Positions 5,798-55,500 of a DNA stretch of 64,000 nt are shown here, one piece after another. The first letter of the stretch is position 1. Each line of letters opens with the position of its first letter. The DNA is from Bolinopsis microptera. Taxonomy: Eukaryota; Ctenophora; Tentaculata; Lobata; Bolinopsidae. Below the pieces are notes generated by a model that was not told where the DNA came from, did no database searches, and saw nothing but the letters and a program-made list of their open reading frames with translations. The stretch covers positions 10,734,411 through 10,798,410 of the forward strand of contig NC_087073.1 in assembly GCF_026151205.1 (NCBI RefSeq). The letters run 5' to 3'. A program made the position numbers and the translations under genes.

Positions 5798-8106
5798 AAT
5801 TGCAAATGACAAAAGTGTAGTAAGGTAACTGCAGGTAACAAGTCTGCTGGTTATTGAGAATTTAACATTAAAATATGTCCCGGCCCTTTGAATCATCCGC
5901 CGAATGATCAACTGAATGATTGAAACAAACAAAGGAACAAGCAAAATTTGTTAAATGGAGTGCATGATCAAAGAAGGTATATTAGCTCCCTACAAAAATC
6001 TAATCCAATGAGAAAATAAATCCGAAGTCCAATTGCAAATGACAAAAGTGTAGTAAGGTAACTGGTAACAAGTCTGCACTCTGCTGGTTATTGAGAATTT
6101 AACATTAAAATATGTCCCGGCCCTTTGAATCATCCACCGAATGATCAACCGAATGATTGCAACAGACAAAGAAACAAGCAAAATTTGTTAAATGGAGTGC
6201 ATGATCAAAGAAGGTATATTAGCTCCCTACAAAAATCTAATCCAATGAGAAAATAAATCTAAAGTCCAATTGCAAAAGACAAAAGTGTAGCAAGGTAACT
6301 GCAGGTAACAAGTCTGCTGGTTATTGAGAATTTAACATTAAAATATGTCCCGGCCCTTTGGAGCATCCGCCGAATGATCAACTGAATGATTGCAACAAAC
6401 AAAGGAACAAGCAAAATTTGTTAAATGGAGTGCATGATCAAAGAAGGTATATTAGCTCCCTACAAAAATCTAATCCAATGAGAAAATAAATCTAAAGTCC
6501 AATTGCAAATGACAAAAGTGTCGCAAGGTTACTGCAGGTAACAAGTCTGCTGGTTATTGAGAATTTAACATTAAAATATGTCCCGGCCCTTTGGAGCATC
6601 CGCCGAATGATCAACTGAATGATTGCAACAGACAAAGAAACAAGCAAAATTTGTTAAATGGAGTGCATGATCAAAGAAGGTATATTAGCTCCCTACAAAA
6701 ATCTAATCCAATGAGAAAATAAATCTAAAGTCCAATTGCAAAAGACAAAAGTGTAGCAAGGTAACTGCAGGTAACAAGTCTGCTGGTTATTGAGAATTTA
6801 ACATTAAAATATGTCCCGGCCCTTTGAATCATCCGCCGAATGATCAACTGAATGATTGCAACAAACAAAGGAACAAGCAAAATTTGTTAAATGGAGTGCA
6901 TGATCAAAGAAGGTATATTAGCTCCCTACAAAAATCTAATCCAATGAGAAAATAAATCCAAAGTCCAATTGCAAATGACAAAAGTGTAGTAAGGTAACTG
7001 GTAACAAGTCTGCTGGTTATTGAGAATTTAACATTAAAATATGTCCCGGCCCTTTGAATCATCCGCCGAATGATCAACTGAATGATTGCAACAGACAAAG
7101 AAACAAGCAAAATTTGTTAAATGGAGTGCATGATCAAAGAAGGTATATTAGCTCCCTACAAAAATCTAATCCAATGAGAAAATAAATCTTAAGTCCAATT
7201 GCAAATGACAAGAGTGTAGCAAGGTAACTGGTAACAAGTCTGCTGGTTATTGAGAATTTAACATTAAAATATGTCCCGGCCCTTTGAATCATCCGCCGAA
7301 TGATCAACTGAATGATTGCAACAAACAAAGGAACAAGCAAAATTTGTTAAATGGAGTGCATGATCAAAGAAGGTATATTAGCTCCCTACAAAAATCTAAT
7401 CCAATGAGAAAATAAATCTAAAGTCCAATTGCAAAAGACAAAAGTGTAGCAAGGTAACTGGTAACAAGTCTGCTGGTTATTGAGAATTTAACATTAAAAT
7501 ATGTCCCGGCCCTTTGAATCATCCGCCGAATGATCAACTGAATGATTGCAACAGACAAAGAAACAAGCAAAATTTGTTAAATGGAGTGCATGATCAAAGA
7601 AGGTATATTAGCTCCCTACAAAAATCTAATCCAATGAGAAAATAAATCTTAAGTCCAATTGCAAATGACAAAAGTGTAGCAAGGTAACTGGTAACAAGTC
7701 TGCTGGTTATTGAGAATTTAACATTAAAATATGTCCCGGCCCTTTGGAGCATCCACCGAATGATTAACCGAATGATTGCAACAGACAAAGAAACAAGCAA
7801 AATTTGTTAAATGGAGTGCATGATCAAAGAAGGTATATTAGCTCCCTACAAAAATCTAATCCAATGAGAAAATAAATCTAAAGTCCAATTGCAAAAGACA
7901 AAAGTGTAGCAAGGTAACTGCAGGTAACAAGTCTGCTGGTTATTGAGAATTTAACATTAAAATATGTCCCGGCCCTTTGAATCATCCGCCGAATGATCAA
8001 CTGAATGATTGCAACAAACTAAGGAACAAGCAAAATTTGTTAAATGGAGTGCATGATCAAAGAAGGTATATTAGCTCTCTACAAAAATCAAATCCAATGA
8101 GAAAAT
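5798..8106. repeat. 230-bp satellite array, ten units
   Basis: Ten head-to-tail copies begin near 5800, 6030, 6268, 6502, 6735, 6966, 7196, 7426, 7656 and 7887, each starting GCAAATGACAAAAGTG or a close variant. Unit length varies from 230 to 238 bp, mainly through presence or absence of a short GCAGGTAA insertion. Copies are about 95% alike, which suggests recent amplification or homogenisation. Short frames on the minus strand are repeats of the same unit and are not genes. Confidence 0.95.
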
Positions 8107-8307
8107 ATTGTTTTCCTATACATTGTATATTACAATCACAATCCACGGACATGACTAAAAATGACTGACACGTCCCGCGCGGCATCAGAAATATGGGAGG
8201 AAATCTGGCACCACGATTTGTGGTGCCAGTTGTGGCCATGGATAGAGCCCTCTTTGCCGCCTCCGGCGGTCGCGCGCTACTGCAAGCGAGAGGGCTCTGG
8301 TTAGAGC

Positions 8308-23075: not shown

Positions 23076-23569
23076 GTTTTCATAAAATCTATTCTGTAGG
23101 TGGGTAGAGCGGGGAAGGAACTATAAAGCTCATAAGTTATGCGGAGTAGGAAGGCGCACGTTAACTTAAGGAATATGAAGCAACGGAAGTTAAAAAATAA
23201 TAAAGGCAGTGCTTGTCCGTATACTGCCGGAACAGCAGTTACAACTTAGGAACAACCAAGAAGGCAACAAATCAAAGAGAATCTAAGGAGTTTAGTAGCT
23301 ACCAAACCAACTATTTCGTTCAGTAACTAAAAAACCAACTATTCATTAAATTAACTGTTCTTGTTCTAGTTTTAGTTAAGATTATTCTAGCTCAATGAAG
23401 ACATACCATGCTAGTTGCTAAGTTACTAGTTGCTAAGTTACCAGTTGCTAGGCCACATGGGACGTGTTAAAATATCAACTTGACACTTGACAGGCAGGCT
23501 GCTTTACAGTCTCCACCTGGACAGTACTACCTGTTATACTACTGTAAACAGCAGCCTACATTACAAAGG

Positions 23570-24641
23570 TACTGAGAGTTATGCGGAGTAGTACTGAGAG
23601 TTATGCGGAGTACTACTGATAGTTATGCGGAGTACTACTGAGAGTTATGCAGAGTACTACTGATAGTTATGCGGAGTAGTACTGATAGTTATGCGGAGTA
23701 GTACTGATAGTTATGCGGAGTACTACTGAGAGTTATGCGGAGTAGTACTGAGAGTTATGCGGAGTAGTACTGAGAGTTATGCGGAGTAGTACTGAGAGTT
23801 ATGCGGATTAGTACTGAGAGTTATGCGGAGTAGTACTGACAGTTATGCGGAGTAGTACTGAGAGTTATGCGGAGTAGTACTGAGAGTTATGCGGAGTACT
23901 ACTGAGAGTTATGCGGAGTAGTACTGATAGTTATGCGGAGTAGTACTGATAGTTATGCGGAGTAGTACTGAGAGTTATGCGGAGTAGTACTGAGAGTTAT
24001 GCGGAGTAGTACTGAGAGTTATGCGGAGTACTACTGAGAGTTATGCGGAGTAGTACTGATAGTTATGCGGAGTAGTACTGATAGTTATGCGGAGTAGTAC
24101 TGAGAGTTATGCGGAGTAGTACTGAGAGTTATGCGGAGTAGTACTGAGAGTTATGCGGAGTACTACTGAGAGTTATGCGGAGTAGTACTGATAGTTATGC
24201 GGAGTAGTACTGAGAGTTATGCGGAGTAGTACTGAGAGTTATGCGGAGTAGTACTGAGAGTTATGCGGAGTAGTACTGATAGTTATGCGGAGTAGTACTG
24301 AGAGTTATGCGGAGTAGTACTGAGATTTATGCGGAGTACTACTGAGAGTTATGCGGAGTAGTACTGAGAGTTATGCGGAGTAGTACTGACAGTTATGCGG
24401 AGTAGTACTGAGAGTTATGCGGAGTACTACTGAGAGTTATGCGGAGTAGTACTGAGAGTTATGCGGAGTAGTACTGATAGTTATGCGGAGTAGTACTGAT
24501 AGTTATGCGGAGTAGTACTGATAGTTATGCGGAGTAGTACTGATAGTTATGCGGAGTAGTACTGATAGTTATGCGGAGTAGTACTGAGAGTTATGCGGAG
24601 TAGTACTGACAGTTATGCGGAGTAGTACTGAGAGTTATGCG
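23570..24641. repeat. 22-bp minisatellite, ~48 copies
   Basis: The unit TACTGAGAGTTATGCGGAGT plus AG is repeated about 48 times. Variation is concentrated at two positions: GAGAG/GATAG/GACAG, and AGTAG versus AGTAC before TACT. Blocks of several variants recur in the same order, indicating expansion by multi-unit duplication. Single isolated units (ATAAGTTATGCGGAGTAG) lie at about 23133 and 24788 on either side and may be ancestral or dispersed copies. Confidence 0.95.
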
Positions 24642-27497: not shown

Positions 27498-28782
27498 TAT
27501 GTTATTCTATTGTTACAACATATCACAACCTGTCATATGAAACTACTGCTCTTTGTAGCACGTGTTATTCTGATACGTTTAATGCTCCTTCTTGTCAGGT
27601 GCTGGGGAACCAAGCAACAACTAAAGATTCTGAGTGTAAATACGGGTGGTAACTTGCCTCATGTTGTGGGCCCGCCGCGCACGAGTGAGCGGCCATATCG
27701 TGGTTTTCGCCACGGTACTCATTATGAAATGAAATTACGATGAGGATCATCTTATTCATCAGTTAACAACTAATCATTAATCCTACTGCTATTTAGAATA
27801 TTTATTTGGAAACACTGGCTGAAATGCCGCCCGAGCACAACGATTTTTGGGATTTAGTCCACTTGACCTACCACTAAATCAATAACTACGCTAAGTAAAG
27901 AACTTAATAAATAAAATGGCCCCGTCAAGTTTTGAGGAAACTCAACATAGATCACATAGGTAGGTAACTAAAGAGAAATAAATATCACTAATAACGATAC
28001 AATGTTAATTAAAATAACTTGATCGATTATCGTTGCCATGGTAATATATAATGCAATGGGACTGATCACTATGTGCCACATAAGGTTCACTTGATAAGGA
28101 ATATTCAAAATTGAGACTCTCCTCACAAGTTATAATGAACGCACTTTAAAATAAAGGTTATAAAGTTATCAAGATTAACCAGTCATTAACATGGTTGATT
28201 GAATTAATAATTGCATAATTATCAAACAATATAATAATAAATTGAAGTTTAATAACACCACTATTAAGATAAAACTTATACTCAGCAGTGTTTAATCTGA
28301 ACATCCCAAAAAAGTACTTGAACAATAGATAAGGAGTAAGGACTGGTAAGTGGTAACTCAAGTACATGTCTCAAAATATACGGGTATGCAACATATTCCC
28401 ATCAACTTACTTTCCATCTTTATAATATGATGAGATATGAAGATTGGAGATTTCTCCCCAGAGACTATTACTTTTCTGGGGAATTACAATAAAGCCGTTC
28501 ATTCCCAACCTTTATATTTGACTTTTTGTTATATAATACGAAAAGAGGGCGATGGAAGAAATAGAATCAACATTTTGAAGGGAGGATGTTATTTTTCTTA
28601 CAAATAAAAAAACACGAATTAACCTAGATCTATACAATTAAAATATTTATAAGGGTAATGAGTCAGAAATTATGCCTTTAAACAAGACTTCAGTAAGTAA
28701 AAACGAAAATAAGATTCCCATACAGAGTTAACAGGAATAGTGAATCTGGTTTATGCTCTTTTCAGAAGAAGGGACCGCACAA
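27498..28782. other. No gene seen; two dispersed repeats
   Basis: Contains the second copies of the dispersed repeats of 1075-1125 (here 27916-27965) and 17530-17660 (here 28228-28305). A plus-strand frame at 27510-27743 shows no family resemblance. Confidence 0.4.
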
Positions 28783-30243
28783 CGACACAAATGTGACGGG
28801 TTGGGACCACACAACCACACAAAAGTGAATGGTTGGGACTGCACAACCACACAAAAGTGAATGGTTGGGACTGCACAACCACACAAAAGTGAATGGTTGG
28901 GACTGCACAACCACACAAAAGTGAATGGTTGGGACCGCACAACCACACAAAAGTGAATGGTTGGGACTGCACAACCACACAAAAGTGAATGGTTGGGACT
29001 GCACAACCACACAAAAGTGAATGGTTGGGACCGCACAACCACACAAAATTAAAAGTGACTGGTTGGGACCGCATAACCACACAAAAGTGACAAGTTGGGA
29101 CCGCAAAACTACACAAAAGTGACTGGTTGGGACCACACAACCACACAAAAGTGACTGGTTGTGACTGCACAACCACACAAAAGTGACTGGTTGTGACTGC
29201 ACAACCACACAAAATTAAAAGTGACTGGTTGGGACCGCACAACCACACAAAAGTGAATGGTTGTGACCGCACAACCACACAAAAGTGACTGGTTGTGACT
29301 GCACAACCACACAAAAGTGAATGGTTGTGACCGCACAACCACACAAAAGTGAATGGTTGGGGAGGCACAACCACACAAAAGTGACGGGTTGGGACCGCAC
29401 AACCACAGAAAGCTGACTGGTTGGGACTGCACAACCACACAAAAGTGAATGGTTGTGACCGCACAACCACACAAAAGTGAATGGTTGAGGAGGCACAACC
29501 ACACAAAAGTGACGGGTTGGGACCGCACAACCACAGAAAATTAAAAGTGACTGGTTGGGGACGCACAACCACACAAAAGTGACTGGTTGTGACTGCACAA
29601 CCACAAAAAAGTGACTGGTTGGGACCGCACAACCACACAAAAGTGAATGGTTGGGACCGCACAACCACACAAAAGTGACTGGTTGGGGACGCACAACCAC
29701 ACAAAAGTGACTGGTTGTGACTGCACAACTACACAAAAGTGACTGGTTGTGACTGCACAACCACACAAAAGTGAATGGTTGGGGAGGCACAACCACACAA
29801 AAGTGACGGGTTGGGACCGCACAACCACAGAAAAGTGACTGGTTGGGGACGCACAACCACACAAAAGTGACTGGTTGTGACTGCACAACTACACAAAAGT
29901 GACTGGTTGTGACTGCACAACCACACAAAAGTGAATGGTTGGGGACACACAACCACACAAAAGTTAATGGTTGGGGACGCACAACCACACAAAAGTGACT
30001 GGTTGGGACCGCACAACCACAGAAAAGTGACTGGTTGGGACCGCACAACCACAAAAAAGTGACTGGTTGGGGACGCACAACCACACAAAAGTGACTGGTT
30101 GGGACCGCACAACCACACAAAAGTGACGGGTTGGGACCGCACAACCACACAAAGGTGACTGGTTGGGACCGAACAACCACAGAAAAGTGACTGGTTGGGG
30201 ACGCACAACCACACAAAAGTGACTGGTTGTGACTGCACAACCA
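28783..30243. repeat. 32-bp minisatellite, ~45 copies
   Basis: The unit GTGACTGGTTGGGACCGCAC plus AACCACACAAAA is repeated about 45 times with point variants (ACTGG/AATGG/ACGGG; GGGACC/GTGACT/GGGGACG). Several copies carry a 5-bp AATTA expansion in the A-run. Because the unit contains no stop on the minus strand in any frame and 32 is not a multiple of three, all three minus frames stay open for hundreds of codons; this is a property of the repeat, not a gene. Confidence 0.95.
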
Positions 30244-30967
30244 TACTGATCGGGTCTCACATGAGGGACTGGTTGTGATTGGTGTGGTAGTATAGTTGGT
30301 GTGTGGCATAACGATTATAAAATATTAGGTTTTACCTCGACTAATGCCCTGTTAACGTAACTCCTCCCCTGGCCTCTTCCTCACATATTCTTATTATTAC
30401 CAACCTTATAATGCTATTAGTCATATTTATTACTATTAGTCATGTAACGGTGCGTCACGAAACTAGATTGTAATAAAACTAATGATCGTTATTGAGCACA
30501 ATATGCGGATTATTAAAGGAGACTCAAACTTTTAAAAACAGGCAAAAATGAAATAAATATTTGAGAGAATAGTTTAAGAATTAAAAATTAAATTAGACAA
30601 AGGGACAACATAATTACTTCATAAAAAGTTATTTGAATTATTCTTCATCATGTGATAGCCTACACACACGAGAGAGTAAATCACGAGCGAGTAATTCTTT
30701 ACAAATGGTAGATGGACATTGGATATAAATATTTGCCCCTGCGAAGCATTATATTATTTTATAATCATTATATTTTACAAAAGGCCACAACCCCTAAAAC
30801 TACCAATTATGTATCATATGACATATAATAATGACCCATAATTTTCCCGCAGCAGCCCTGAACAGGGATTAGACCTACTAATCTGAGTTCACTCTTTGTC
30901 TAGATTCCAATGCAATTGTTGATGTGAGTACTGAGTAGCGGCAATAAAGCCGCGATTTAGGAGCAGA

Positions 30968-31537: not shown

Positions 31538-34500
31538 CTGCACCAATCACCGGGCGTTTCATATTTGTGTACACTAGTTGCGAGGTTGCTAGCACTTGTA
31601 GCAGGGGTAAGGAACCCCGGTGAATGTAGCACCCGCAGTTTACAGGCTTGTTAGGCTGCTTACTGTGACACGTGGTAAGTAGTATGTTACCATAACAACT
31701 ATTGCTATAAGAACTGTTATTGGTGTGTTGTCATGACAACTGTGACTCGTGTGTGCTGTCACTTCTGTGTTAGACAGTGAGAGAGCAGGAACCGTTACTA
31801 AAAGTAAAACTAGCTATAAATAGAAACATAGAGGGAGGGATGTGTCTAGTGTTAAATTTAAGTGACAAATACCCTAAATAGAGGGAGTTTATTAAGATAC
31901 TGTAGTGCCCACACGACACTACTACACATCAAGTCTGTGCGACTGGTGATCTTATGGCTTATAACATTATTTAAACACTGTTTATACAGTAAAACCCTTG
32001 GCTTACTTAAACACTCTAACATGTTTATTTTCGCATTCCAGGCTAGTCAAAGTTCATACCAAGCTACTAGAGGCTCAGACCAAGCTACTAGAGGCTCATA
32101 CCAGGCTACTAGAGGCCAAGATTAATTCAACTATTTTCAATTCAAATTCCACTCAATTTCACTCTGATAGTGATAAAATTTAGAAATCGATCGGATATCC
32201 GGCTATAGTAAGTAGTTAAGAAGGTGCTTGGCCACATATCAATCAGAAATTTCATTAATTTTCATGAAAAATTCTCGAGGGCGAGGTCCCGAAAAATATT
32301 TTCGGCTCATAATTATCAAAGTAATATGAACACTGGAGAAAAGTTGTTTCCAGGAAAATGTTCGGTCCGAGTCATCCTCGATACGTACCTCTGAAGAGAG
32401 GCTCCCGCTTCCGAGCTCGCAATGCAAAGGGGAGGCCTGCCTTCCGAGATCGCATTACAAGGGGGAACCCTCGAGTCCAAAATCGTATATATATATATAT
32501 ATCGAAAAAACAAAAAATATTTTCGGCTCATAATGATCAGGGTAGTTTCATGAACTGTAGAGAAAAGTGGTTTCCAGGAAAACTTGACAAATTTTTTTTC
32601 GATTGATACGTACCTCTAAAGGCAGACTCCCCGCTTCCGAGGTCGTATTGCAAAGGGGAGGCCTGGCGCCTGCCCTTTGAGATTACAAAGGGAAGCCTTG
32701 ACTACTAGATCGGATATCGAGGGTGATGTAGGACTTCGAAATCGGGATAGAAAACATAAAAACTTATAAATCTCGGAAATATTTTTACAGGATTGTTTTC
32801 AGCTTGGAAAGGAAAAGTACAAAAATTATGATATTTGAAAAAATAATTATTTTACAATTTGTACAAAATTTATACAAGGGGGGGGGGGGGGGGGGGACCC
32901 TTGTGTCCGAGCTGGAAAATTGTTAAAGGTTGAAATACGATAAAAGGGCAAAAATTGTATTTTTGGTGTTCGAATTGATATTTAGATTCTAGATGAATAT
33001 TGTACTTAAATTATCTACTATGTACTATAAATAATGTATCTTAGCTAATAATAGTGGGAGCTATCAGTTAGTAAAATAGTAGGAAATAATAACAAGACTG
33101 TGATTAGACAAGACTTTAATATCGAGATATTGTGTTCTGTGGGGTTACTAACCTCTGATCTGAGGGATAACATTAAAGATTAAAAGTGAAAATAAGAACT
33201 ATTTTTAGACTGCTGTGTTCGTGCAAAATATAGCGGGTCATTGGTTACAAAATAACACAAAATAGCAAAAAGAATGGTCTACTATAATACTAGCATAGTA
33301 TTACTGTAGACTGCATTATATGGTATGCACGGTCTGGTAATTGATTAGTGGTAACTGATTACTTTTCTCGATGAAGGTGTTTATCTATATTGGAACATGG
33401 TTGAGCTTGTGATTGAGCAAGGCAAAACGCCCAACTGATCATGAAGCCACCTGCTACATTAATACTACACACCCCCCCCCCCCCCCTACTACTACTAGTC
33501 TCTCTTATAGCACGTATTGAATATATCAAGATATGACGTTCCACCTGCTTCATTATGGTCTAGTTGACATAGGATAACCTGACTGGAGACCAAATATTTT
33601 AAGCATATCATCTAGGGAGGTGATAACCGTCTAGAAATGGCTTTTAACACGAAAAGCTAACGAGTTCATGTTTCGTCTCGGAAATATGAACCCCTGGGCG
33701 GGATACCTATCAAGAAATTATACAAGTACCATTTATAAACGAACTCGCTTTACTACTTTATACTAGTGACTAATGACTATATTATATAGAATAACACTAT
33801 TACTAGAATTAAACTATTTAATCAAGTATTTATACTGATAATAGTGTAAGTACTAGTTATTATATTACTATTTACTAGAGCCATATTCTAATACTAGTTA
33901 CTAGTATTATTTTATCACTATACTATTACTTCGCCACTAGTTTAGTCACTAGTATAGTAATTACTCAATTAGTATCACACTACTAAAAGTGTTATCACGC
34001 GTACTCGACCTCCTAGTTTACCTCCTTTAAATAACTAAATAAATAATAAATAAAGTCACATTTTATACAGTTATTTATCGATAAATATTTGTGTCAGTTA
34101 AATAAGAAACTATAGAACAAACAATATCATAGAACTGTTAGTAGCACACCCGCTATATAAACCTCAGCAAGTTGTATTACTCGCAATATTAGAGTAATAC
34201 GGCTCTTCAAGAGGGCTAGAATCATCAACTTAATAACACCAGAATGTGTGGTGTGTCTGTTGTGTCTGTCTGTGTGTAATTTCCGAACGGTTATACAAAC
34301 AAAACGGTAAGAGTTACGGGACTGGTTTTTTTCAGGATTCGTGCGGACAAAAATCTGATGAAAGTCCATAAGCAAATTTTTTAAAAATCGGCCGGTGGAA
34401 AGTGGTTTAATTGACAGTTTTGTACCACATATGTTTGCATAAAATAGCTTGAGCAGAACGGCAAGAGTTACGGGGCTTGCTCTCTATATCTCATTACTGT

Positions 34501-37500
34501 ATAATAATATGTAGCTGCATTTAAGTAGCGTCATAATTGCGTTAGCCCGGGGAGATTCGCTGTAATGTAATACCATAAGCTTATTAGCAGGGGAGGGGGA
34601 CTGTTAGTGTTTGGGGTCTGTTTGGACTGCAGAGAGAGAGAGAGTTCATACGACAATGTTATGGCGTGTTTTCAAATATAATATGCGGGTGTGGTGCGGA
34701 TTTAACATGTAAAGGGGTTAATTTCTATAACGATTAAATAAAAATAGAAAGCGGTTCAAGACGGAGTGATGAGGTGTAATATTCGGTGTTCAGACCTTAT
34801 GATCGTGGAATGTGGTGCCTCATGCTAATAATGACTTAATTATCCACAAGAAATAACTGATTATGAAATTATTGTATAAGAAACTATTGAGTATTGGGTC
34901 ACCAAATACGGGTTTTGACTCAGCAGGTAATTACTCCTACCCTTTTTAACTGCGGCAGTGAAATCCCGGCCGAAGGCCGGGTTACACTTATTCTATATAG
35001 TTATGTAATCGACCGAAATACTTTAATAAACCGTCATAAGCGAAGACCACATCGGACAAAAAACAGTAAAATAGTGGTTAAAAAGTGGTTGTACACTATA
35101 ATACACAGTCTTAAATAGTATTTAAAACGATTAAAAGTTTGAAATTAAAAACATGTAACGTATGTTAACTAGCAGGTGTATTTAGCAACGAACTGAAAAA
35201 TAAATAAAAGAAGCTCCAAAACAAGTAGTATGATCTATATCATGAGAAATATGTACCGAGACCGTCTCCTCGTCTCCTCGTCTCGGATATTAATATAAAT
35301 TCTTTACTATGGATGTCTCCATATATTTTTTAGATGTTTTACAATGAACGAAGTATAGTAATGGGGGGGGTGTCATGTCCGTCTTGTCCGCTATGTCCTG
35401 TCCTTTTTGGATTCTATGAGACACCGGACGTGTTTTTTGGGGACATGGGCGGACACTGACGGACATTGGCGGACTCGGACGGACATAGGCGGACCCGGAC
35501 GACATAGGCGGGACTCGGGACGGACATTGGTGGACATTAGCGGACATTGGTGGACATAAGCGGACAAACATTTTGAGAATTTTCGCAACTTGTATTATAT
35601 TCTTGTACAAAACAAACGACTTATTAATCACACTAAAGCTATTAATAGGCTTTAACTTATTATATCAATTATATAACTATATAGGGACCCAGGAAAGGCC
35701 CCAGGGGAGGAGGAGTGGATGACTGGAGGAGGGAGGACTGTTGAGGACTGATGAGGAGGACTGAGGACGATGAGTAGGAGGAGGAAGAGAACTGGGGAGG
35801 ATCAGGAAGACCCAGGAGGGAGGACCCAGATGAGGGACCCAGGAGGAGGAGGATCAGAGGAGGACTGAGGAGGGATGACCTCAGGAGGAGGAGGACTCAG
35901 GAGGGGAGGACCTGAGGGACAAGGAGTAGGAGGAGGGACTGAGGAGGGGAGGAAGATGAGAACTGGGGCGGATTAGGAAAACCCAGGAGGAGGACCCAGG
36001 AGGAGGGCCCAGGAGGAGGACTATAGGAGGATGACTTAGGAGGGAGGAGGGACTCAGGAGGAGGACTGGAGGAGGACTGAGAAGGAGGAGGACTGAAGAG
36101 TACTGAAGAGTACTGAGGAGGATGGCTGAGGGAGGATGCTGAGGGAGGATGGCTGAGGAGGAGGGCTGAGGAGGATGGCTGAGGAGGGATGACTGGGGAG
36201 GATGACTGAAGGGGGAGGAGGAGGATCAGGAAGACCCAGGAGGAGGAGACCCAGAAGGAGGACCTAGGAGGAGGGAGGAGAACTGAGGAGGATGAGCTCA
36301 GGAGGAGGAGGACTCAGGAGAGGGAACTCAGGAGGAATGAGAAGGAGGAGGACTGAGGAAGATGGCTTAGGAGGATACTGAGAGGGGAGAGGAGGGAAGA
36401 GGAGGAGAGGACTGAGGAGGAGGAGGAGAAGGACCCAGGAGGAGAAGGGAGGGACCCAGGAGTGAGGAGGGACCCAGGAGGAGAAGGACCCCAGGAGGAG
36501 GACCCAGGAAAAGGCCCAGGAGAGGAGGAGGGACTGGGGAGGAGGGACTGTTGAGGACTGATGAGGAGAACTGAGGACGAGGAGGAGGAGTAGGAGGGAG
36601 GACTGAGTAGGGGAGGAGGAAGAGGACTGGGGAGGATCAGGAAGACCCAGGAGGAGGAACCCAGGAGGAGGAGGAGGAGGATGGTCCCCAGGAGGGAGGA
36701 GGAGATAAGGACCAGGAGGACTGAGGAGAGGAGCTGAGGAGGATGACTGGTGAGGATGGCTGAGGAGGATGGCTGAGGAGGATGACTGCACTGAGAGGAT
36801 GACTGAGAGGGAGGAGGAGGACCTCAGGAGGAGGACTCAGAGGAAGAGGACCCAGGAGGAGGACCCGGAGGAGGACTAAGGGAGGATGACTCAGGAGGAG
36901 GAGGACTCAGGAGGAGGACTGAGGAGGACTGAGAAGTGAGGAGGACTGAAGAGTACTGAAGAGTACTGAGGAGGATGGCGTGAGGAGGATGGCTGAGGAG
37001 GATGGCTGAGGAGGATGGCTGAGGAGATGGCTGTGGAGGATGACTGAGGAGGATGACCTGAGAGGGAGGAGGAGGATCAGGAAGACCCAGGAGGAGGAGG
37101 ACCCAGAAGGAGGACCTAGGAGGGAGAGGGAGAACTGAGGAGGATGACTCAGAGGAGGGAGGAACTCAGGAGGAGGGACTCAGGGAGGAATGAGAAGGAG
37201 GAGGACTGAGAAGATGGCTTAGGAGAATGACTGAGAGGGGAGGAGGAGGAAGAGGAGGAAGAGGACTGAGAGGAGGAGGAGAAGGAACCAGGAGGAGAAG
37301 AGGACCCCCCTAGGAGGAGGAGGACCCAGGAGGGAAGGACCCAGAGGAGGACCCAGGAAAAGGCCCCAGGAGGAGGAGGAGGACTGGGGAGGAGGGACTG
37401 TTGAGGACTGATGAGGAGAACTGAGGACGAGGGAGGAGAGTAGGAGGAGGACTGAGGAGGGGAGGAGGAAGAGGACTGGGGAGGATCAGGAAGACCCAGG

Positions 37501-40500
37501 GAGGAGGACCAGGAGGGAGGAGGAGGAGGAGGTCCCAGGAGGAGGAGGAGAAGGACCAGGAGGACTGAGGAAGAGGACTTGACGATGACTGAGGAGGAGG
37601 ACTGGGAGGATGACTGAGGAGGATGCTGAGGAGGATGGCTGAGGAGGATGACAGCACTGAGGAGGATGACTGAGAGGGAGGAGGAGGACTCTGAGGAGGA
37701 CTCAGGAGGAAGAGGACTCAGGAGGAGGACTTAGGGAGAAATGAGAAGGAGGACTGAGGGAGAACTGAGGAGAGAGGAGGAGGAGGGGAGGGACTGAATA
37801 GGAGATAAGTGGAGGGGGACTGGGAAAGGGACCCAGGAGGAGGGAGGAGGAGGACTCAGGAGGATGACTTCAGGAGAGGACTCAGGAGGAGGACTGAGAG
37901 TGGGACTGAGACGGAGGAGGACTGAAGAGTACTGAAGAGTACTGAAGAGGATGGTTGAGGAGATGACTGAGGAGGATGACTGAGGAGGATGACTGAGGAG
38001 GATGACTGAGGAGGATTGACTGAGAGGGAGAGGGAGGATCAGGAAGACCCAGGAGAGGAGGAGGAGGACCCAGAAGGGAGGACCTAGGAGGGCGAGGAGA
38101 ACTGAGGGAGGATGACCAGGGAGGAGGAGGACTCAGGAGGAATGAGAAGGAGGAGGACTGAGGAGGGATGGCTGAGGAGGGATGGATGCGGGGGGAGGAG
38201 GAGGAAGAGGAGGAAGAGGACTGAGGAGGAGGAGAAGGGACTGAGGGAGAAGGAGGACCCAGGAGGAGGAGGACCCAGGAGGAGGAGGGACTCAGGAGGA
38301 GGGACCCAGGAAAGGCCCCAGGAGGAGGAGGAGGACTGGGGAGGGGACTGTTGAGGGACTGATGAGGAGAACTGAGGGACGAGGATGAGGAGTAGGGAGG
38401 AGGACTGTAGGAGTGGGAGGAGGAAGAGGACCTGAGGAGGATCAGGGAAGACCCAGGAGGAGGACCCAGGAGGAGGAGGAGGAGGAGGACCCAGAAGGAG
38501 GAGGAGGGAGGGACCCAGGAGGACTGAGGAGGATGACTGACGATGACTGAGGAGGAGGGACTGAGGGATGATGACTATTGACTGAGGAGGATGGCTGAGG
38601 AGGATGGCTGAGGAGGATGGCTGAGGAGGATGACTGAGGAGGATGACTGAGAGGGAGGGAGGAGGACTCAGGGAGGAGGACTCAGGAGGAAGAGGACTCA
38701 GGAGGAGGACTTAGGAGAAATGAGAAGGAGACTGAGAGAACTGAGGAGGAGGAGGAGGACTGAATAGGGAGGATAAGGAGGGGGACTGGGAAAGGACCCA
38801 GGAGGAGGAGGAGGAGGACTAAGGAGGATCGACTCAGGAGGGAGGAGGGACTCCGGAGGAGGACTGAGGAGGACTGGAGACAGGAGGAGGAGCTGAAGAG
38901 TACTGAAGAGTACTGAGGAGGATGGCTGAGGAGGATGGCTGAGGAGGGATGGCTGAGGGAGGATGGCTGAGGAGGATGGCTGAGGAGGATGACTGAGGGA
39001 GGATGACTGAGAGGGAGGAGGAGGATTAGGAAGACCCAGGGAGGAGGAGGGACCCAGAAGGAGGACCTAGGGAGGGAGAGGAGAACTGAGGAGGATGACT
39101 CAGGAGGAGGAGGACTCAGGAGGAGGGACTCAGGAGGAATGAGAAGGAGGAGGACTGAGGAAGATGGCTTAGGAGATGACTGAGAGGGAGGAGGGAGGAA
39201 GAGGAGGAAGAGGACTGAGGAGGAGGAGGAGAAGGACCAGAGGAGAAGGAGGACCCAGGAGGAGGAGGACCCAGGAGGAGAAGGACCCAGGAGGAGGACC
39301 CAGGAAAAGGCCCCAGGAGGAGGAGGAGGAGGACTGGGGAGGAGGACTGGTTGAGGACGATGAGGAGAACTGAGGACGGAGGAGGAGGAGTAGGAGGGAG
39401 GACTGAGGGAGGGGAGGGAGGAAGAGGACTGGGGAGGGATCAGGAAGACCCAGGAGGAGGGACCCAGGGAGGAGGAGGAGGAGGAGGTCCCCCAGGAGGG
39501 AGGAGGAGAAGGACCCAGGAGGACTGAGGAAGAGGACTGACGATGACTGGAGGAGGAGGACTGAGGAGGATGACTGAGGAGGATGGCTGAGGAGGATGGC
39601 TGAGGAGGATGACTGCACTGAGGAGGATTGACTGAGAGGGAGGAGGAGGACTCAGGAGGAGGACTCAGGAGGGAAGGAGGACTCAGGAGGAGGACTTAGG
39701 AGAAATGAGAAGGACGACTGAGTGAGACTGGAGGAGAAGGAGGAGGAGGAGGACTGAATAGGAGGATAAGGAGGGGGACTGGGAAAAGGACCCAGGAGGA
39801 GGAGGAGGAGGACCCAGGAGGGATGACTCAGGAGGAGGGACTCAGAGGAGGACTGAGGAGGACTGAGACGGAGGAGGACTGAAGAGTACTGAAGAGTACT
39901 GAAGAGGATGGTTGAGGGAGGATGACTGAGGAGGATTGACTGAGGAGGATGACCTGAGGAGGATGACTGAGGAGGATGACTGAGAGGGAGGAGGAGGATC
40001 AGGAAGACCCAGGAGGAGGAGGAGGAGGACCCAGAAGGAGGACCTAGGAGGAGGAGGAGAACTGAGGAGGATGACTCAGGAGAGGAGGACTCAGGAGGAA
40101 TGAGATGGAGGAGGACTGAGGAGGACTGGCTGAGGAGGATGGATGCGGGGGAGGGGGAGGAGGAGGAAGAGGAGGTAAGAGGACTGAGGAGGAGGAGAAG
40201 GAACTGAGGAGAAGGAGGACCCCAGGAGGAGGGAGGACCCAGGAGGAGGAGGACTCAGGAGGAGGAGCCCAGGAGAAGGCCCCAGGAGGAGGAGGAGACT
40301 GGGGAGGAGGACTGTTGAGGACTGATTGAGGAGAACTGAGGACGAGGGATGAGGAGTTGGAGGAGGACTGAGGAGGGGAGGAGGGAGAGGACTGAGGGAG
40401 ATCCGGAAGACCCCAGGAGGAGGACCCAGGAGGAGGAGGAGGAGGAGGACCCAGGAGGAGGAGGAGGAGGGACCCAGGAGGACTGAGGAGGATGACTGAC

Positions 40501-43500
40501 GATGACTGAGGAGGGAGGACTGAGAAGGATGACGGAGGAGGATGGCTGAGGAGGATGGCTGAGGAGGATGGCTGAGGAGGATGACTGAGGAGGACTGACT
40601 GAGAGGGGAGGAGGAGGATCAGGAGGAGGGACTCAGGGAGGAAGAGGACTCAGAGGAGGACTTAGGGAGAAATGAGAAGGAGGACTGAGGAGAACTGAGG
40701 AGGAGGAGGAGGACTGAATAGGAGGATAAGGAGGGGGACTGGGAAAGGACCCAGGAGGAGGAGGAGGAGGAGGACTAAGGAGGATGACTCAGGAGGAGGA
40801 GGACTCAGGAGGAGGACTGAGGAGGACTGAGAAGGAGGAGGACTGAAGAGTACTGAAGAGTACTGAGGAGGATGGCTGAGGAGGATGGCTGAGGAGGATG
40901 GCTGAGGAGGATGGCTGAGGAGGATGGCTGAGGAGGATGACTGAGGAGGATTGACTGAGAGGGAGGAGAGGATCAGGAAGACCCAGGAGGGAGGAGGACC
41001 AGAAGGAGGACCTAGGGAGGAGGAGGAGAACTGAGGAGGATGACTCAGGAGGAGGAGGACTCAGGAGGAGGACTCAGGAGGAATGAGAAGGAGGAGGACT
41101 GAGGAAGATGGCTTAGGAGAATGACTGAGAGGGAGGAGGAGGAAGAGGAGGAAGAGGACTGAGGAGGAGGAGGAGAAGGACCCAGGAGGAGAAGGAGGAC
41201 CCAGGAGGAGGAGGACCCAGGAGGAGAAGGACCCAGGAGGAGGACCCAGGAAAAGGCCCAGGAGGAGGAGGAGGACTGGGGAGGAGGACTGTTGAGGACT
41301 GATGAGGAGAACTGAGGACGAGGAGGAGGAGTAGGAGGAGGACTGAGGAGGGGAGGAGGAAGAGGACTGGGGAGGATCAGGAAGACCCAGGAGGAGGACC
41401 CAGGAGGAGGAGGAGGAGGAGGTCCCAGGAGGAGGAGGAGAAGGACCCAGGAGGACTGAGGAAGAGGACTGACGATGACTGAGGAGGAGGACTGAGGAGG
41501 ATGACTGAGGAGGATGGCTGAGGAGGATGGCTGAGGAGGATGACTGCACTGAGGAGGATGACTGAGAGGGAGGAGGAGGACTCAGGAGGAGGACTCTGGA
41601 GGAAGAGGACTCAGGAGGAGGACTTAGGAGAAATGAGAAGGAGGGACTGAGGAGAACTGAGGAGAAGGAGGAGGAGGAGGACTGAATAGGAGGATAAGGA
41701 GGGGGACTGGGAAAGGACCCAGGAGGAGGAGGAGGAGGACTCAGGAGGATGACTCAGGAGGAGGACGCAGGAGGAGGACTGAGGAGGACTGAGACGGAGG
41801 AGGACTGAAGAGTACTGAAGAGTACTGAAGAGGATGGTTGAGGAGGATGACTGAGGAGGATGACTGAGGAGGATGACTGAGGAGGATGACTGAGGAGGAT
41901 GACTGAGAGGGAGGAGGAGGATCAGGAAGACCCAGGAGGAGGAGGAGGAGGACCCAGAAGGAGGACCTAGGAGGAGGAGGAGAACTGAGGAGGATGACTC
42001 AGGAGGAGGAGGACTCAGGAGGAATGAGAAGGAGGAGGACTGAGGAGGATGGCTGAGGAGGATGGATGCGGGGGAGGAGGAGGAAGAGGAGGAAGAGGAC
42101 TGAGGAGGAGGAGAAGGACTGAGGAGAAGGAGGACCCAGGAGGAGGAGGACCCAGGAGGAGGAGGACTCAGGAGGAGGACCCAGGAAAAGGCCCCAGGAG
42201 GAGGAGGAGGACTGGGGAGGAGGACTGTGAGGACTGATGAGGAGAACTGAGGACGAGGATGAGGAGTAGGAGGAGGACTGAGGAGGGGAGGAGGAAGAGG
42301 ACTGAGGAGGATCAGGAAGACCCAGGAGGAGGACCCAGGAGGAGGAGGAGGAGGAGGACCCAGGGAGGAGGAGGAGGAGGACCAGGAGGACTGAGGAGGA
42401 TGACTGACGATGACTGAGGAGGAGGACTGAGGAGGATGACTGAGGAGGATGGCTGAGGAGGATGGCTGAGGAGGATGGCTGAGGAGGATGACTGAGGAGG
42501 ATGACTGAGAGGGAGGAGGAGGACTCAGGAGGAGGACTCAGGAGGAAGAGGACTCAGGAGGAGGACTTAGGAGAAATGAGAAGGAGGACTGAGGAGAACT
42601 GAGGAGGAGGAGGAGGACTGAATAGGAGGAGGAGAAGGAGGGGGACTGGGAAAGGACTGAGGAGTAGGAGGACTGATGAGAAGGATGAGGAGGAGGACTG
42701 AGGACCGAGGATGAAGAGGAGGAGGATGAAGAGGAGGAGGAGGACCCAGGAGGAGGAGGACTGAGGAGGAGGACTGAGGAGGATGACTGAGAGGGAAGAG
42801 GAGGAGGAGGAGGACTCAGGAGGAGGAGGAGGAGGACTGAGGAGGACTGAGGAGGAGGAGGACTGAATAGGAGGAGGAGGAGAGGGACTGGGGGAGGACT
42901 GAGGAGGAGGACGGAGGACTGAGGAGAAGGATGAGGAGGAGGACTGAGAAGGACTGAGGACTGAGGAGGAAGAGGAGGAGGATGAAGAGGAGTTGGAGGA
43001 CCCAGGAAGAGGGACCCAGGAGGAGGACTCAGGAGGAGGATGGAGGACTGAGGAGAAGGATGTGGAGGAGGACTGAGGAGGACTGAGGACTGAGGGAGGA
43101 AGAGGAGGAGGATGAAGAGGAGGAGGAGGACTGGGGAGGAGGACTGTTGAGGACTGATGAGAGGGACTGAGGACGAGGAGGAGAGTAAGAGGACTAAAGA
43201 GGGGAGGAGGAAGAGGACTGGGGAAGATCAGGAAGACCCAGGGGGAGGAGGAGGAAGAGTAGGAGGAGGAAGCATCTAAATGTTATTTCCATTTTTGTCC
43301 GTTTTTGTCCATTTTTGTCCGTTTTTGTCCGCTCTATTTTTTGTCCGTTTTGAAAATATAGGGTACCGAACGGACAAAAAAACATGATCCTCCTATAACA
43401 GCAAAAATTGAACATTTTATTTAGCAATTTAGGTGTCCATTAATGTCCGTCTATGTCCACCAATGTCCGCCTATGTCCGTCTATGTCCGCCTATGTCCGC

Positions 43501-46500
43501 ATATGTCCGCCTATGTCCGCCTATGTCCGCCTATGTCCTGTCCTTTTTGGATTCTATGAGACAAGCGGACATAGACGGACGTGACACCCCCCCCAGTAAT
43601 AGTCTTCTGGATCAAATTAGCACAATTCCTCCCTCAACATATCAGACCTAACTGAGTGCTGTTACAAATTAATTAACAAGTTGAAGTTTAAATACTAACG
43701 ACTAGCTATCTAGCGCTACAGCAATCCCAATACAGAACTACAGTACTGCTAATACTCATTTTAACATAAGGATCTAATTTGGGATTTCAGTGTCAAGTGT
43801 GTGTCTGTGTCTGTGTTGACGAACTATGTCGGCGACCTATTTGAAGTGAAAATAATACTTATTATCCGTAAAAACGGAATAGCATTCCTCAATGCTATGT
43901 TCCAGATCTTTTGATAAATCACGAGAGCAAAGTTGCATTACATAATGGTCTCCATAACTACGATTTGGGAACATTTTGAATTTCCAATATAATAATGTTA
44001 TTCTAATTTCTTTACTAATATTCCTTTCCAAATAACAGATGTTACCCCCCCCAACCAATTGTTCAGTTAAATGTTACCCCCCGGCCCCCCCCAACCAATT
44101 GTTCAGTTAAATGTTACCCCCCCCCCCCAACCAATTGTTCAGTTAAATGTTACCCACCCCCAACCAATTGTTCAGTTAAATGTTACCCCCCCAACCAATT
44201 GTTCAGTTAGATGTTACCCCCCCCCCCCCAACCAATTGTTCAGTTAAATGTTACCTCCACCCCCACCCAACACCCAAGTCTTCATTAAGACGAACCTGAT
44301 CAGATTCTGAGATGTTATCTGAGTCGGATGTGGAACTGCTTTCTTGTGTACTGAACCGGTTCTTCCTCTGTGGTTGTGGGGTCGTCTGTAAAACGAGACA
44401 GTTAAACACTACACTCTCCGTAAATTCTGTCTCATCAATTAGCTTTTCTTAACAGTTATGCAAATTTATTATTAAACTTTGTTGTACTTTTAAACTCTAT
44501 TGTACGTATTTTAAATTCTTATTGTATTTAATTTAAACTTTATTCAATTTACACTTGTGACTTGTTACACATTTATGAAGAAGCATATTATGTTGCACGT
44601 CTTGCTTCATATAAAAATGTGTCAAACATTTTGCGGTTATACACTTTGAAGCGGTTGATGAAAATGATGGTTTCAGAGCGGCTGGGAAGTACAATAGTTG
44701 CCAACTAACTCTATAACTAATATAAGTGGGGTTTCTAAAATACATGAACATTAAGGGTTAGTAAGGGTAGCGCTACAAAATTTTACTAAGACTGAATTTA
44801 TCTATTAATATTTCTAAAAATTCTCAGACGCTTCCAATTATACAAGGTATTTGCAAACTTCATTGTTACTAATTACAACTATTCTGTCACAATCATAGTT
44901 CCAGTATTTTTATCTGGTATCCCCTAATATGTACGGTGCGCCTGTTCAATGCGACCCCACAATTCCAGGCTGTTATAATAGTAGTTAGTTACTAGTATGT
45001 AACTAGTAAGGTTTAATGAGCGACATCGCTTACTATCCCGAATATAGTGAATAATTGCGATAAATTATCTGTAATAGTGTTGAGATTTAATTATAACTGC
45101 GAATATTGGGCTATCATCGGTAACAGGTACACGATGCGGGTTTACCATTATTTCTACCATTAAAAGTAAAGTAATGTGTCTATTTTATTATTTTCACGTC
45201 GCTGGAAGACTCGTGATAAAGTTTGTTGTGTGTGCCAGCAAGGTAGGCAGGGCCAGCAAGGTAAAGGTAACCTCACACGGTTGTTATCTAGGCAACTATT
45301 CACCTTATTACTATTAGTATTAGCAATTTTACAATAAATACAGAAACTTAAAGAGAGCAAAGAAGAAGGAAATAAGACCTATTTTTATATAGTACCTGTT
45401 CTGAAGGATTATTGTTGGAGTCGGTGGATTCCCGTCGCTCCATGAAGGCGTTATTCTTGGCTTGTCCGCAAGTCTGAGGTCTGTATTTGGGGTTGTTCTT
45501 CTTGCACTGTGTACTTTGGGGAGTAATCTGAGGAAATTTATTGTTATTTTGGAGGGTAATCTGGTGGATTTCGGTGTTATTTTTGGGGTGATCTGATGTA
45601 TATTGTATTGGCAGTAGATGGAGGTAGCCTGCTTACTTGGTTGCCTAGGGAGAGTAGGAGGTTGGAGACGTTTTCCCGGGAAACAGGAAAATCATCACTG
45701 TCAGCGCTGTCACTGTCATCATCACAGGCAAACAGTTCTTCTAGTTCGTCGTCAACGTCATCAAAATCAGGGGAAACTAGATAAGCCGCACCTGGACCAG
45801 GTTGTTGTTAAAATCTCGAAAAATGGTTGCCATAAGAATGCCAATTTGAAGGGTGAAATTATGAGATAACTTTCTTACTTTTGCCACCGAAATTGCTTAA
45901 ATTTCTTTGGCTAAGACGATAATGATCGCTATAAAAATATTTGAAAATAAAATAATTAAAAATTGTAAATTAAAATAATTAAAAATTAAATAAACAAACC
46001 GGAAGCGAAGGAAGGGATGGGAGTGGAGAGGGTCTGTACTGCAGGTATCTCCATCTTGCTACTCCGAGCGTAGTCCATTGTACACAAACACTCACCCACA
46101 CTGTACTCCTTATCACTGGTAAAGTGAAATTTAGCTTTTTATGGAAATAAATTAAAACATAATTGTGAAATAAATTTCAATGATATAGCTAATTTCACAA
46201 TATATATTCACTTGTCGCAAAAACAGAATGACCAGAAATTTTGAATCAGAATCAACATATTTAATGTTTCCATGGGCCTGGGTGGCAAGTCCGTTCTCAC
46301 CTGTAGGGCTGATCATACAACTCCACACAGGGTTTACCGTGTCTCTCACCCACTACCACACATCTTAGCGGGTACCACTGTCCACATTGGGTCAAGGCAT
46401 CGAACTTGGCTGTAGCGTCCGGGGTCCACTGTCTGGTCGCTGCGGAGGGAGATATTAGAGGGGGGGGGGGGAGCAGTAGTTATATAAGAATATTGATTGA

Positions 46501-52500: not shown

Positions 52501-55500
52501 CAGAGCAGATCTCACCTGGCCCCCTAGCCCCCCCCCCCCCCCTGACTACTGGTTAGATGTTTAGTGTTTTAGTTTAGTTTAGTTAGTCATGGTTGATGCA
52601 AGTCAAATATTTGCAGTTTGAGAAACTCTAAGATAATAACAAGTTAGCAGTAGATCCAGAGCAGATCTCACCTGGCCCCCTAGCCCCCCCCCCCCCTGAC
52701 TACTGGTTAGATGTTTAGTGTTTTAGTTTAGTTTAGTTAGTCATGGTTGATGCAAGTCAAATATTTGCAGTTTGAGAAACTCAATGATAATAACAAGTTA
52801 GCAGTAGATCCAGAGCAGATCTCACCTGGTCCCGGTGTATCTTGACCCGTGGGTACTTGATTTCCTTGTTAGCGCCCATGTCTCGAGGGGTGACGGTAAC
52901 TACTTTTCCTATCAGCTCAGAACTTGCCACGTTTCCACAGCCACTAGCTCCAATACTCACACACACAGCTGAAAATACACGTGTAAAAACTGAGGATATG
53001 CGTGGCAAAAGCACAATAACATAAAGAATAAACAGTTGTAATAGTAGCTTACTACTGTCGGTAGCTTACTACTGTTAGTAGTTACTACTGTCGGTAGCTT
53101 ACTACTGTTAGTAGCTTACTACTGTTAGTAGCTTACTACTGTCGGTAGCTTACTACTGTCGGTAGCTTACTACTGTCGGTAGCTTACTACTGTTGGTAGC
53201 TTACTACTGTCGGTAGCTTACCACTGTTAGTAGCTTACTACTGTCGGTAGCTTACTACTGTCGGTAGCTTACTTCTGTAGGTAGCTTACTACTGTTGGTA
53301 GCTTACTACTGTTAGTAGCTTACTACTGTTAGTAGCTTACTACTTTTAGTAGCTTACTACTGTCGGTAGCTTACTACTGTCGGTAGCTTACTACTGTCGG
53401 TAGCTTACTACTGTTGGTAGCTTACTACTGTCGGTAGCTTACCACTGTTAGTAGCTTACTACTGTTGGTAGCTTACTACAGTGTTTATACAGTGTATTTA
53501 CCCATGCTTGATTTTAGCAGATAGGTCTAGGCAGAACTAATAATAGTAGGTCCTGTAATCGAACAAAGAAACAAGCGGTGACAAAACCAAAATGTGAACA
53601 GCTCAGGTAAGAAAACTTGCCTAACTGAGGTAGATTGAGCCTATCTAGATATAACTCACGCAGTAGTACTCTCACGAGATGACAGCAAACTAAAATCAAG
53701 CACACGAATATAATGTTTTATTATGAGCCGGGGGATAATAGTGTAAGCGAGGGCGGGAAGGTTAAAAGAGTGTGTAACAAGCAGTGCAACAGTGCACACA
53801 GTGAGTTACAGGTATTCACATATATCTGCTCCTCCGACTCCTCACACACCTGTTAAACAAAGTGCTCCACATGCAGCGTGAACTGGAAAGCAGGATTTAA
53901 AGAGAGTGATTGTGTGTGCGCTGTATTATCCGTTACGCGCTCTACAGTTTTAAGTACAACAAAAAGATTTTGGCAAGTACGAGTTTTAATAATATATATA
54001 TAATGAGAAGGGCTGTAAATCAGATATTTTCGGTTTAATAGTCGGGAAACAATTGAGTTTATTATAAAGGAGCAGGTGAGTAAGCGTTGTCCCCATTAAA
54101 CAACATGAGAAAAGGAAGACTTGAGTAGTATTAGTAGTAATAGCTTGTTGGGCCACACGCTTAACTAACCATGCATAGAGTCATATATTACATAACACTA
54201 ACCATTGTGCATTGTCATCAAATTATATTTTAACTGGTTCCCTTTTACAAAATCCCCTCCACTAATCTATTATGCGATACGTTGCCAATGGCGTCCACAG
54301 GAATTTTAAATACATTCTTATATAAAATCATTTAAAATTAATGATATTTTAATCTCAGGTGAAAGGCTACAAAATTGTTAAATGTTTTCGTTTAAGGCTA
54401 CGAAATCGCACGACAATTATTCTAAGACAATACTAGCCATAATTAATTAACAATACTAACCATAAACTAACGTTATTAACATAAAGTAAGTAAGTAAGTA
54501 TTAATATAAGGTTATTAACGTTACGTTTTAATAAGAGCTAGCGGACATGTGACCACTAAACTACAGTAAGTAAGTGGAGTGCTGAGCCTTGCTGCGGTGT
54601 GCGATCCGCATGTGGTACGAGTTTAGCATGGTGAAACAATGTCTCTATATGGCAACATTGCTACTGCTAGGTTTTCCGGTAAAACTGGCGGTGGATAAAA
54701 CATTAATTCTGTAAACTATTCGAGCATGCTCTGATACATGATAGTATTATAATGCTTTGTTTCAAAAGTGTGATATATTGTATGATACTGAAGGGGTATC
54801 CTAAGAAAATTCTTGATCGTTTGGCAGACCCTCCTCCTTATTTTACCCTCAACTATTCCAGCACCCACTTATAACCCACACCCACCCACTTATAACTCAC
54901 ACCCACCCACTCATACCACCCACTTATAACTCACACCCACCCACTTATAACCCACACCCACCCACTTATAACCCACACCCACCCACTTATAACCCACACC
55001 CACCCACTTATAACCCACACCCACCCACTTATAACCCACACCCACCCACTTATAACTCACACCCACCCACTTATAACTCACACCCACCCACTTATAACTC
55101 ACACCCACCCCCTTATAACTCACGCCCACCCAATAACGGCAACAGTAAGTCAATAGTAACTAACCAGCAGGGGGCAGTCCAGCCAGGTCCTCGGGCAGCT
55201 CCGTCAAACACTTTCTAGGAACTGCAAACACAACTCCTGTGTCCACATCGTAACACTCTACCAGAGTTTTAGATATAGACTGTAGGGTGATTATTCGGCA
55301 ATTCGTCCCCGTGGATTGGTCCATAAACAGATACAATCGATTCTGAAATTATACGTGTTGTAGTCACTCCCATTCCAATTAAGTCATCGTATTAATTTGT
55401 TCGACAGTCAAGCAACTAGCATGCATGTTATTGTATTAGTTCATGCGATTACTTAATACTTATTTATAGTTATCAGTTAGTGTAATATCTTGCAAATGTG

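Follow-up and report, generated by a model that had tools for sequence, protein, structure and literature searches.

The window analysed here is a stretch of 64,000 nucleotides (C2:10734411-10798410 of genome G000, a eukaryotic assembly of 264.65 Mb in 232 contigs). At positions 35363-43594 it holds an 8.2-kb element in which a polypurine satellite lies between inverted ends (G8-TGTCAYGTCCGTC), with the hexamer AGTAAT on each side. A preliminary description of the window had delimited the element in the same way, and the limits proved exact to the base when the inverted ends and the flanking AGTAAT were read directly. The element is a non-autonomous, non-coding DNA transposon with terminal inverted repeats (TIRs). 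We consider it very likely that it belongs to a large non-autonomous TIR family in which the satellite was acquired and expanded inside a mobile element and was then copied to most of the members.

The origin and spread of satellites are usually inferred from their end products. Here a single genome presents the same ends without a satellite, around one satellite in about 3 or about 26 units, and around a different one that extends over 1-8 kb, at separate insertion sites. The series amounts to a before-and-after record of satellite acquisition, expansion and dispersal, and the family shows tandem repeats boarding mobile DNA; the earlier suggestion that such an element would let a satellite move was right.

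Copies, target sites and interiors

The genome was searched for GGGTGTCAYGTCCGTCTATGTCCG, the pattern of the ends, at up to one mismatch, and the pattern read backwards served as the control. Other loci with the same ends, for which the preliminary description had proposed a genome search, do exist: there were 391 forward and 394 reverse matches, 785 ends in total or about 390 copies, and 0 matches for the reversed control. A perfect 6-bp target-site duplication (TSD), abutting the G/C runs and own to each site, was found at 22 of the 24 copies checked, the window copy included (for example ATTAAT, ATTAGC, AATAAA and ACTAGT), whereas mispaired flanks agreed in 4 of 552 combinations. Together with the empty control search, this excludes chance. 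Other copies thus bear flanking direct repeats of their own, a point that the preliminary description had proposed to check, and these differ from site to site, as transposition demands. The dinucleotide TA occupies the two central positions of the 6-bp target at 66% of 85 ends, compared with 13% for a control position, and the flanking DNA is unrelated from locus to locus.

An empty site closing to a single duplication, also among the proposed checks, was seen for the sister copy L074 rather than for the window's own site. When the L074 flanks were joined with a single ATTAAA, they matched at least 40 paralogous loci from end to end, with identities of 97-100%, for example 180 of 180 bases at C12:119050-119229. 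L074 sits in a high-copy repeat, which appears to be a retrotransposon, as its reading resembles the end of a non-long-terminal-repeat (non-LTR) reverse transcriptase, and whose other copies show the empty site.

Ends were paired, among the matches listed, across C1 and within the first 8 Mb of C2, about 34 Mb in all. The 42 joined pairs measure 1.2-6.5 kb with a median of 2.6 kb, and the window copy exceeds all of them in length. The first seven complete copies recovered all had a purine core and their own TSD. With about 390 copies of 2.6 kb, we estimate that the family amounts to about 1 Mb, or 0.4% of the genome. The G-run has a mode of 8 and reaches about 30, and its length at one end of a copy is independent of that at the other, as expected from slippage. 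The right ends have a median identity of 97.7%, which points to a recent burst of multiplication. At two places on C1 ends of the same direction lie close together, 0.4 kb apart at L059/L060 (C1:6269651 and 6270077) and 1.4 kb apart at L050/L051 (C1:4623808 and 4625236), which suggests nested or truncated copies.

A 38-bp marker of the purine satellite has 569 matches genome-wide with up to 3 mismatches. For C1, 35 exact matches were listed. Of these, 34 fall within an element or next to one, and the remaining match, at 16925801, is not near any listed end. The satellite is therefore transposon-borne and essentially not free-standing, in agreement with the preliminary description, and it lacks the free-standing long arrays of a classical satellite. 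The right junction of the purine core has 577 matches genome-wide, and the purine strand is oriented alike relative to both ends in the copies compared.

How the cargo differs between copies was another of the proposed checks: array length varies, and rare sisters are satellite-free or carry an unrelated satellite. On the purine cores, which are of low complexity, blastn gave little and k-mer diagonals were used instead; in the window copy these reveal higher-order repetition at about 935-970 bp and at multiples of that length. The nearest relative, L069, lies at a distance of 382 kb and has another TSD (AATTTG), and the two copies were inserted independently. An offset of 3900 bp brings L069 into collinearity with the right part of the window copy, and it is thus about four blocks shorter. 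In another copy, L075, blocks of about 0.92-1.26 kb are repeated along with the right junction, which is present five times. Both comparisons indicate that array length changes by whole blocks.

Two sister copies, L093 (C2, TSD TATATC) and L096 (C4, TSD ACTATT), have the same TIRs but no satellite. They are 1.1-1.3 kb long, with about 0.6-0.85 kb of other sequence in the interior, some of which has a relative elsewhere in the genome: about 200 bp are 74% identical to L097 (C12:13668650-13670400), where the related sequence lies 3' of a 264-aa open frame without a significant Pfam match. The interior of L093 and L096 itself contains a 131-aa open frame found at about eight loci. It was considered as a transposase remnant and rejected, having no Pfam match and being related only to L097; we infer that this interior is more likely a captured host fragment than a transposase.

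A second satellite, unrelated to the purine repeat, occupies L077 (C1, TSD ACTAGT), which combines the same ends with about 26 units over 6.5 kb (period 246/499 bp). In the 1.3-kb copy L095 (C5, TSD AATATG) these ends enclose about 3 units of this ~250-bp satellite, and L091 is a further copy of the type. In an alignment of the ends, the left spacer is common to L093, L095 and the purine copies, and the inner right sequence is common to all subfamilies up to one shared point. The ancestral right junction occurs at only 6 loci, as against the 577 matches of the purine junction. The ~250-bp satellite is also found outside these elements, in other repeats and in the window itself, where about two units at 71-75% lie on the minus strand at 32292-32741. 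They fall within a repeat at 32075-32741, 3 kb to the left of the element, that is related to the L077 interior (159 bp at 90%).

Structure of the window copy and neighbouring repeats

The left TIR (35363-35387, plus strand) reads G8-TGTCATGTCCGTC and was recognised both by sequence reading and by the end-pattern search; its G8 occupies 35363-35370 and directly follows the left TSD (35357-35362). The right TIR (43564-43594, minus strand) reads G8-TGTCACGTCCGTCTATGTCCGC, its part corresponding to TGTCATGTCCGTC being TGTCACGTCCGTC on that strand. On the plus strand it is TGACACCCCCCCC, stopping at 43594 with the C8 at 43587-43594, and is followed by the identical right TSD (43595-43600). A feature missed by the preliminary description is a 31-bp segment, ATGTCCTGTCCTTTTTGGATTCTATGAGACA, present near both ends in direct orientation (35393-35423 and 43533-43563, both plus strand) and the same in all subfamilies. 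Because of it the inverted ends are interrupted, and the left and right ends can be distinguished.

Farther inside are the subterminal arrays of GGACAT-type units, at 35441-35572 on the plus strand and at 43434-43537 on the minus strand, the latter reading ATGTCCGCCT on the plus strand. Their inverse orientation is as first described, but the units are spaced by 10 bp and not by about 11 bp. A 111-bp left spacer (35565-35675, plus strand) is kept in about 70 copies, as well as in the satellite-free L093 and in L095. The satellite core spans 35684-43268 on the plus strand; Tandem Repeats Finder resolves it into degenerate GAGGAGGAGGACT-type units of about 13 bp, and its purine content is about 75-87% in almost every 100-bp interval. 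Between the core and the right array lie the right junction and spacer (GAAGCATCTAAATGTTATTTCC... AATTGAACATTTTATTTAGCAATTTAGG; 43269-43433, plus strand), the second half of which is common to satellite-free copies.

The only open reading frames of the core are low-complexity, minus-strand frames of 162-175 aa. These long frames were rejected as genes, being by-products of the pyrimidine-rich strand. Elsewhere, the purine copy L076 (C3:4238300-4248200) contains a fragment of a non-LTR reverse transcriptase, with a frame of about 400 aa, between its left end and its core, and a copy of 5 kb at C1:10054540 proved to be a purine copy in degenerate form. L077 and L091 were examined as candidate autonomous copies and set aside, both being of the ~250-bp-satellite type.

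Several other tandem repeats surround the element. At 44039-44271, 440 bp to its right, is a 33-36-bp array with C-runs of variable length. Minisatellites are found at 5798-8107 (230 bp x 10, 95%), 23569-24641 (22 bp x 49, 96%), 28771-30243 (32 bp x 45, 88%) and 53044-53479 (17 bp x 26, 91%). The region 3316-5446 contains two arrays of ~180-bp units (3946-4450 and 4572-5446) that are mutually inverted and form a large hairpin-like pair. On the minus strand, reading stays open through the 32-bp array for 325-364 aa (28751-30309), giving Cys-rich repeats (FVWLCGPNQSLLCGCA...), probably a by-product of the 32-bp repeat. The window's other tandem arrays were scanned for flanking inverted repeats, and no structure comparable to the element was found around them.

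Origin of the satellite

The preliminary description had left open whether a transposon acquired and amplified a satellite or a satellite expanded inside a mobile element. Of these alternatives, the evidence speaks for acquisition and expansion of the satellite within an element that was already mobile, since there are satellite-free copies (L093 and L096) with the same ends and subterminal sequence, array length is variable, and the satellite is almost absent outside the elements. In the history that we propose, a satellite-free ancestor resembling L093 and L096 would have gained a purine-rich tandem repeat in its interior, most simply once, and the satellite-bearing version would then have been copied into most of the family. 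Copies would be moved by the transposase of an autonomous element acting in trans, which would recognise the terminal G-run/TGTCAYGTCC motif and perhaps also the subterminal arrays of 10-bp GGACAT units; transposases of several superfamilies recognise subterminal repeats. Between or after jumps, the core would grow and shrink by exchange or slippage in blocks of about 935-970 bp. The satellite would need no role of its own, neutral cargo being the simplest view.

Several points weigh against this history. No transposase-bearing or autonomous copy was present among the copies read (long or odd copies sampled on C1-C3), and mobilisation in trans is what we infer. The order from satellite-free to satellite-bearing is suggested by shared subterminal sequence, and the direction may instead have been satellite loss from an older element. 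Few satellite-free copies stand behind the claim of a single acquisition. The window element has no empty allele in this assembly and its flanks are unique, and the pairing of ends covered C1 and part of C2.

It is possible, although we think it rather unlikely, that the TIR system served as a platform that took up tandem repeats more than once, the purine satellite in one lineage and the ~250-bp satellite in another, and that satellite-bearing versions spread better instead of being mere cargo. L077 and L095 would fit such a scheme, with the same ends, 6-bp TSDs and subterminal sequence around an unrelated satellite and with L091 as another copy of their type, as would the contrast between about 390 end pairs, nearly all with a purine core where examined, and the 6 loci with the ancestral junction. 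However, chance or founder effects can set copy number, and the ~250-bp satellite, given its occurrence outside the elements, may have entered by nesting of another element. We are slightly more doubtful still of the fuller proposal, in which unrelated repeats were acquired repeatedly and a long polypurine array raises transposition or host tolerance, giving the ratio of about 60:1 between satellite-bearing and satellite-free copies. Triplex or R-loop structures are possible in principle in a polypurine array.

That the purine satellite is old and free-standing, and that a transposon inserted into it or captured a piece of it, seems quite improbable. Capture of pre-existing tandem repeats has been proposed for the Xenopus element miDNA4 (PMC12628747), and the second satellite does occur elsewhere, but the purine marker lies within or next to elements at 34 of the 35 exact matches listed on C1, and the core has a fixed right junction and, among the copies that were compared, a constant orientation relative to the ends. 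Other tandem repeats abound in the window, which might suggest an ordinary array with chance inverted repeats, or one dispersed by segmental duplication; this is refuted almost beyond doubt by near-identical ends in their hundreds, by TSDs that are independent of one another, by the empty site and by the unrelated flanks. The same near certainty applies against a Helitron or Helentron with central tandem repeats, a common satellite carrier: Helitrons create no target-site duplication, and this family has inverted ends and a 6-bp TSD at 22 of 24 sites. It does resemble Cg_HINE in its central repeats and dispersed copies (PMC7492417). Acquisition and expansion inside a mobile TIR element remains our preferred explanation.

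Classification and comparison with known elements

Shared ends, TSDs of fixed length own to each copy, the L074 empty site and the lack of a transposase of their own place these copies among non-autonomous TIR transposons. They are larger than miniature elements (under about 0.6-1 kb), at 1.2-6.5 kb for the paired copies, 8.2 kb here and 1.1-1.3 kb for the satellite-free ones. Foldback (Tetris-like) elements have long TIRs made of tandem repeats; here the ends hold inverted 10-bp arrays of 100-130 bp, with the main array lying between the ends. The 6-bp TSD excludes Tc1/mariner, whose target is TA, whereas here TA is merely the centre of the duplication, and it likewise excludes Helitrons and Helentrons, which have neither TSDs nor TIRs.

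Duplications of 6 bp have been reported for Polinton, for IS3EU/GingerRoot (PMC10045372) and for Dada (PMC3706591), and the window family is like them in this respect. However, IS3EU ends in TA..TA, and the TA..TA or TG..CA termini of the IS3EU/GingerRoot group are not found here, as the TSD abuts the G-run and a TG..CA pair emerges only when the G-run is disregarded. Dada elements have no TIRs and target small-RNA genes, whereas the present copies have TIRs and their targets are AT-rich and dispersed. No DNA polymerase B or integrase genes of the Polinton kind occur in the copies read, and the family may have originated as a gene-less Polinton derivative.

The preliminary description had called such cargo unusual. 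This is only partly right. New are the polypurine nature of the satellite, the size, and the fact that one set of ends comes with no array, a short one or a long one. Satellites inside non-autonomous transposons, however, are already described, including miDNA4 and Xstir in Xenopus, Pearl in bivalves and DINE in Drosophila (PMC12628747, PMC9659126). As summarised in those two papers, miDNA4 of Xenopus tropicalis (Scalvenzi and Pollet 2014) is a Tc1/mariner miniature inverted-repeat transposable element with an internal satellite of variable copy number, dispersed by transposition and proposed to have been captured and then expanded. Our family is alike as a non-autonomous TIR element with these properties, but has a 6-bp TSD with a TA centre, a polypurine core with a ~950-bp higher-order repeat and a length of up to 8.2 kb. 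It also has sister copies without a satellite or with another satellite, unlike miDNA4 as it is portrayed there. The Cg_HINE Helentrons of Crassostrea gigas place different satellite-like repeats at the centre of related flanks (PMC7492417), a similar combination of shared flanking modules and differing central repeats, although these are rolling-circle elements without TSDs, in contrast to the TIRs and 6-bp TSD of our copies. A further case, Tetris from Drosophila virilis, which shares an end sequence with the smaller miniature element DAIBAM (PMC4079207), is likewise a non-autonomous TIR-type element with internal tandem repeats, but there the repeats are part of the TIRs and occur as free satellite arrays too, whereas the satellite described here lies between the ends and is not free-standing. 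The window family therefore resembles known satellite-bearing transposons yet, by the criteria checked, belongs to none of them.

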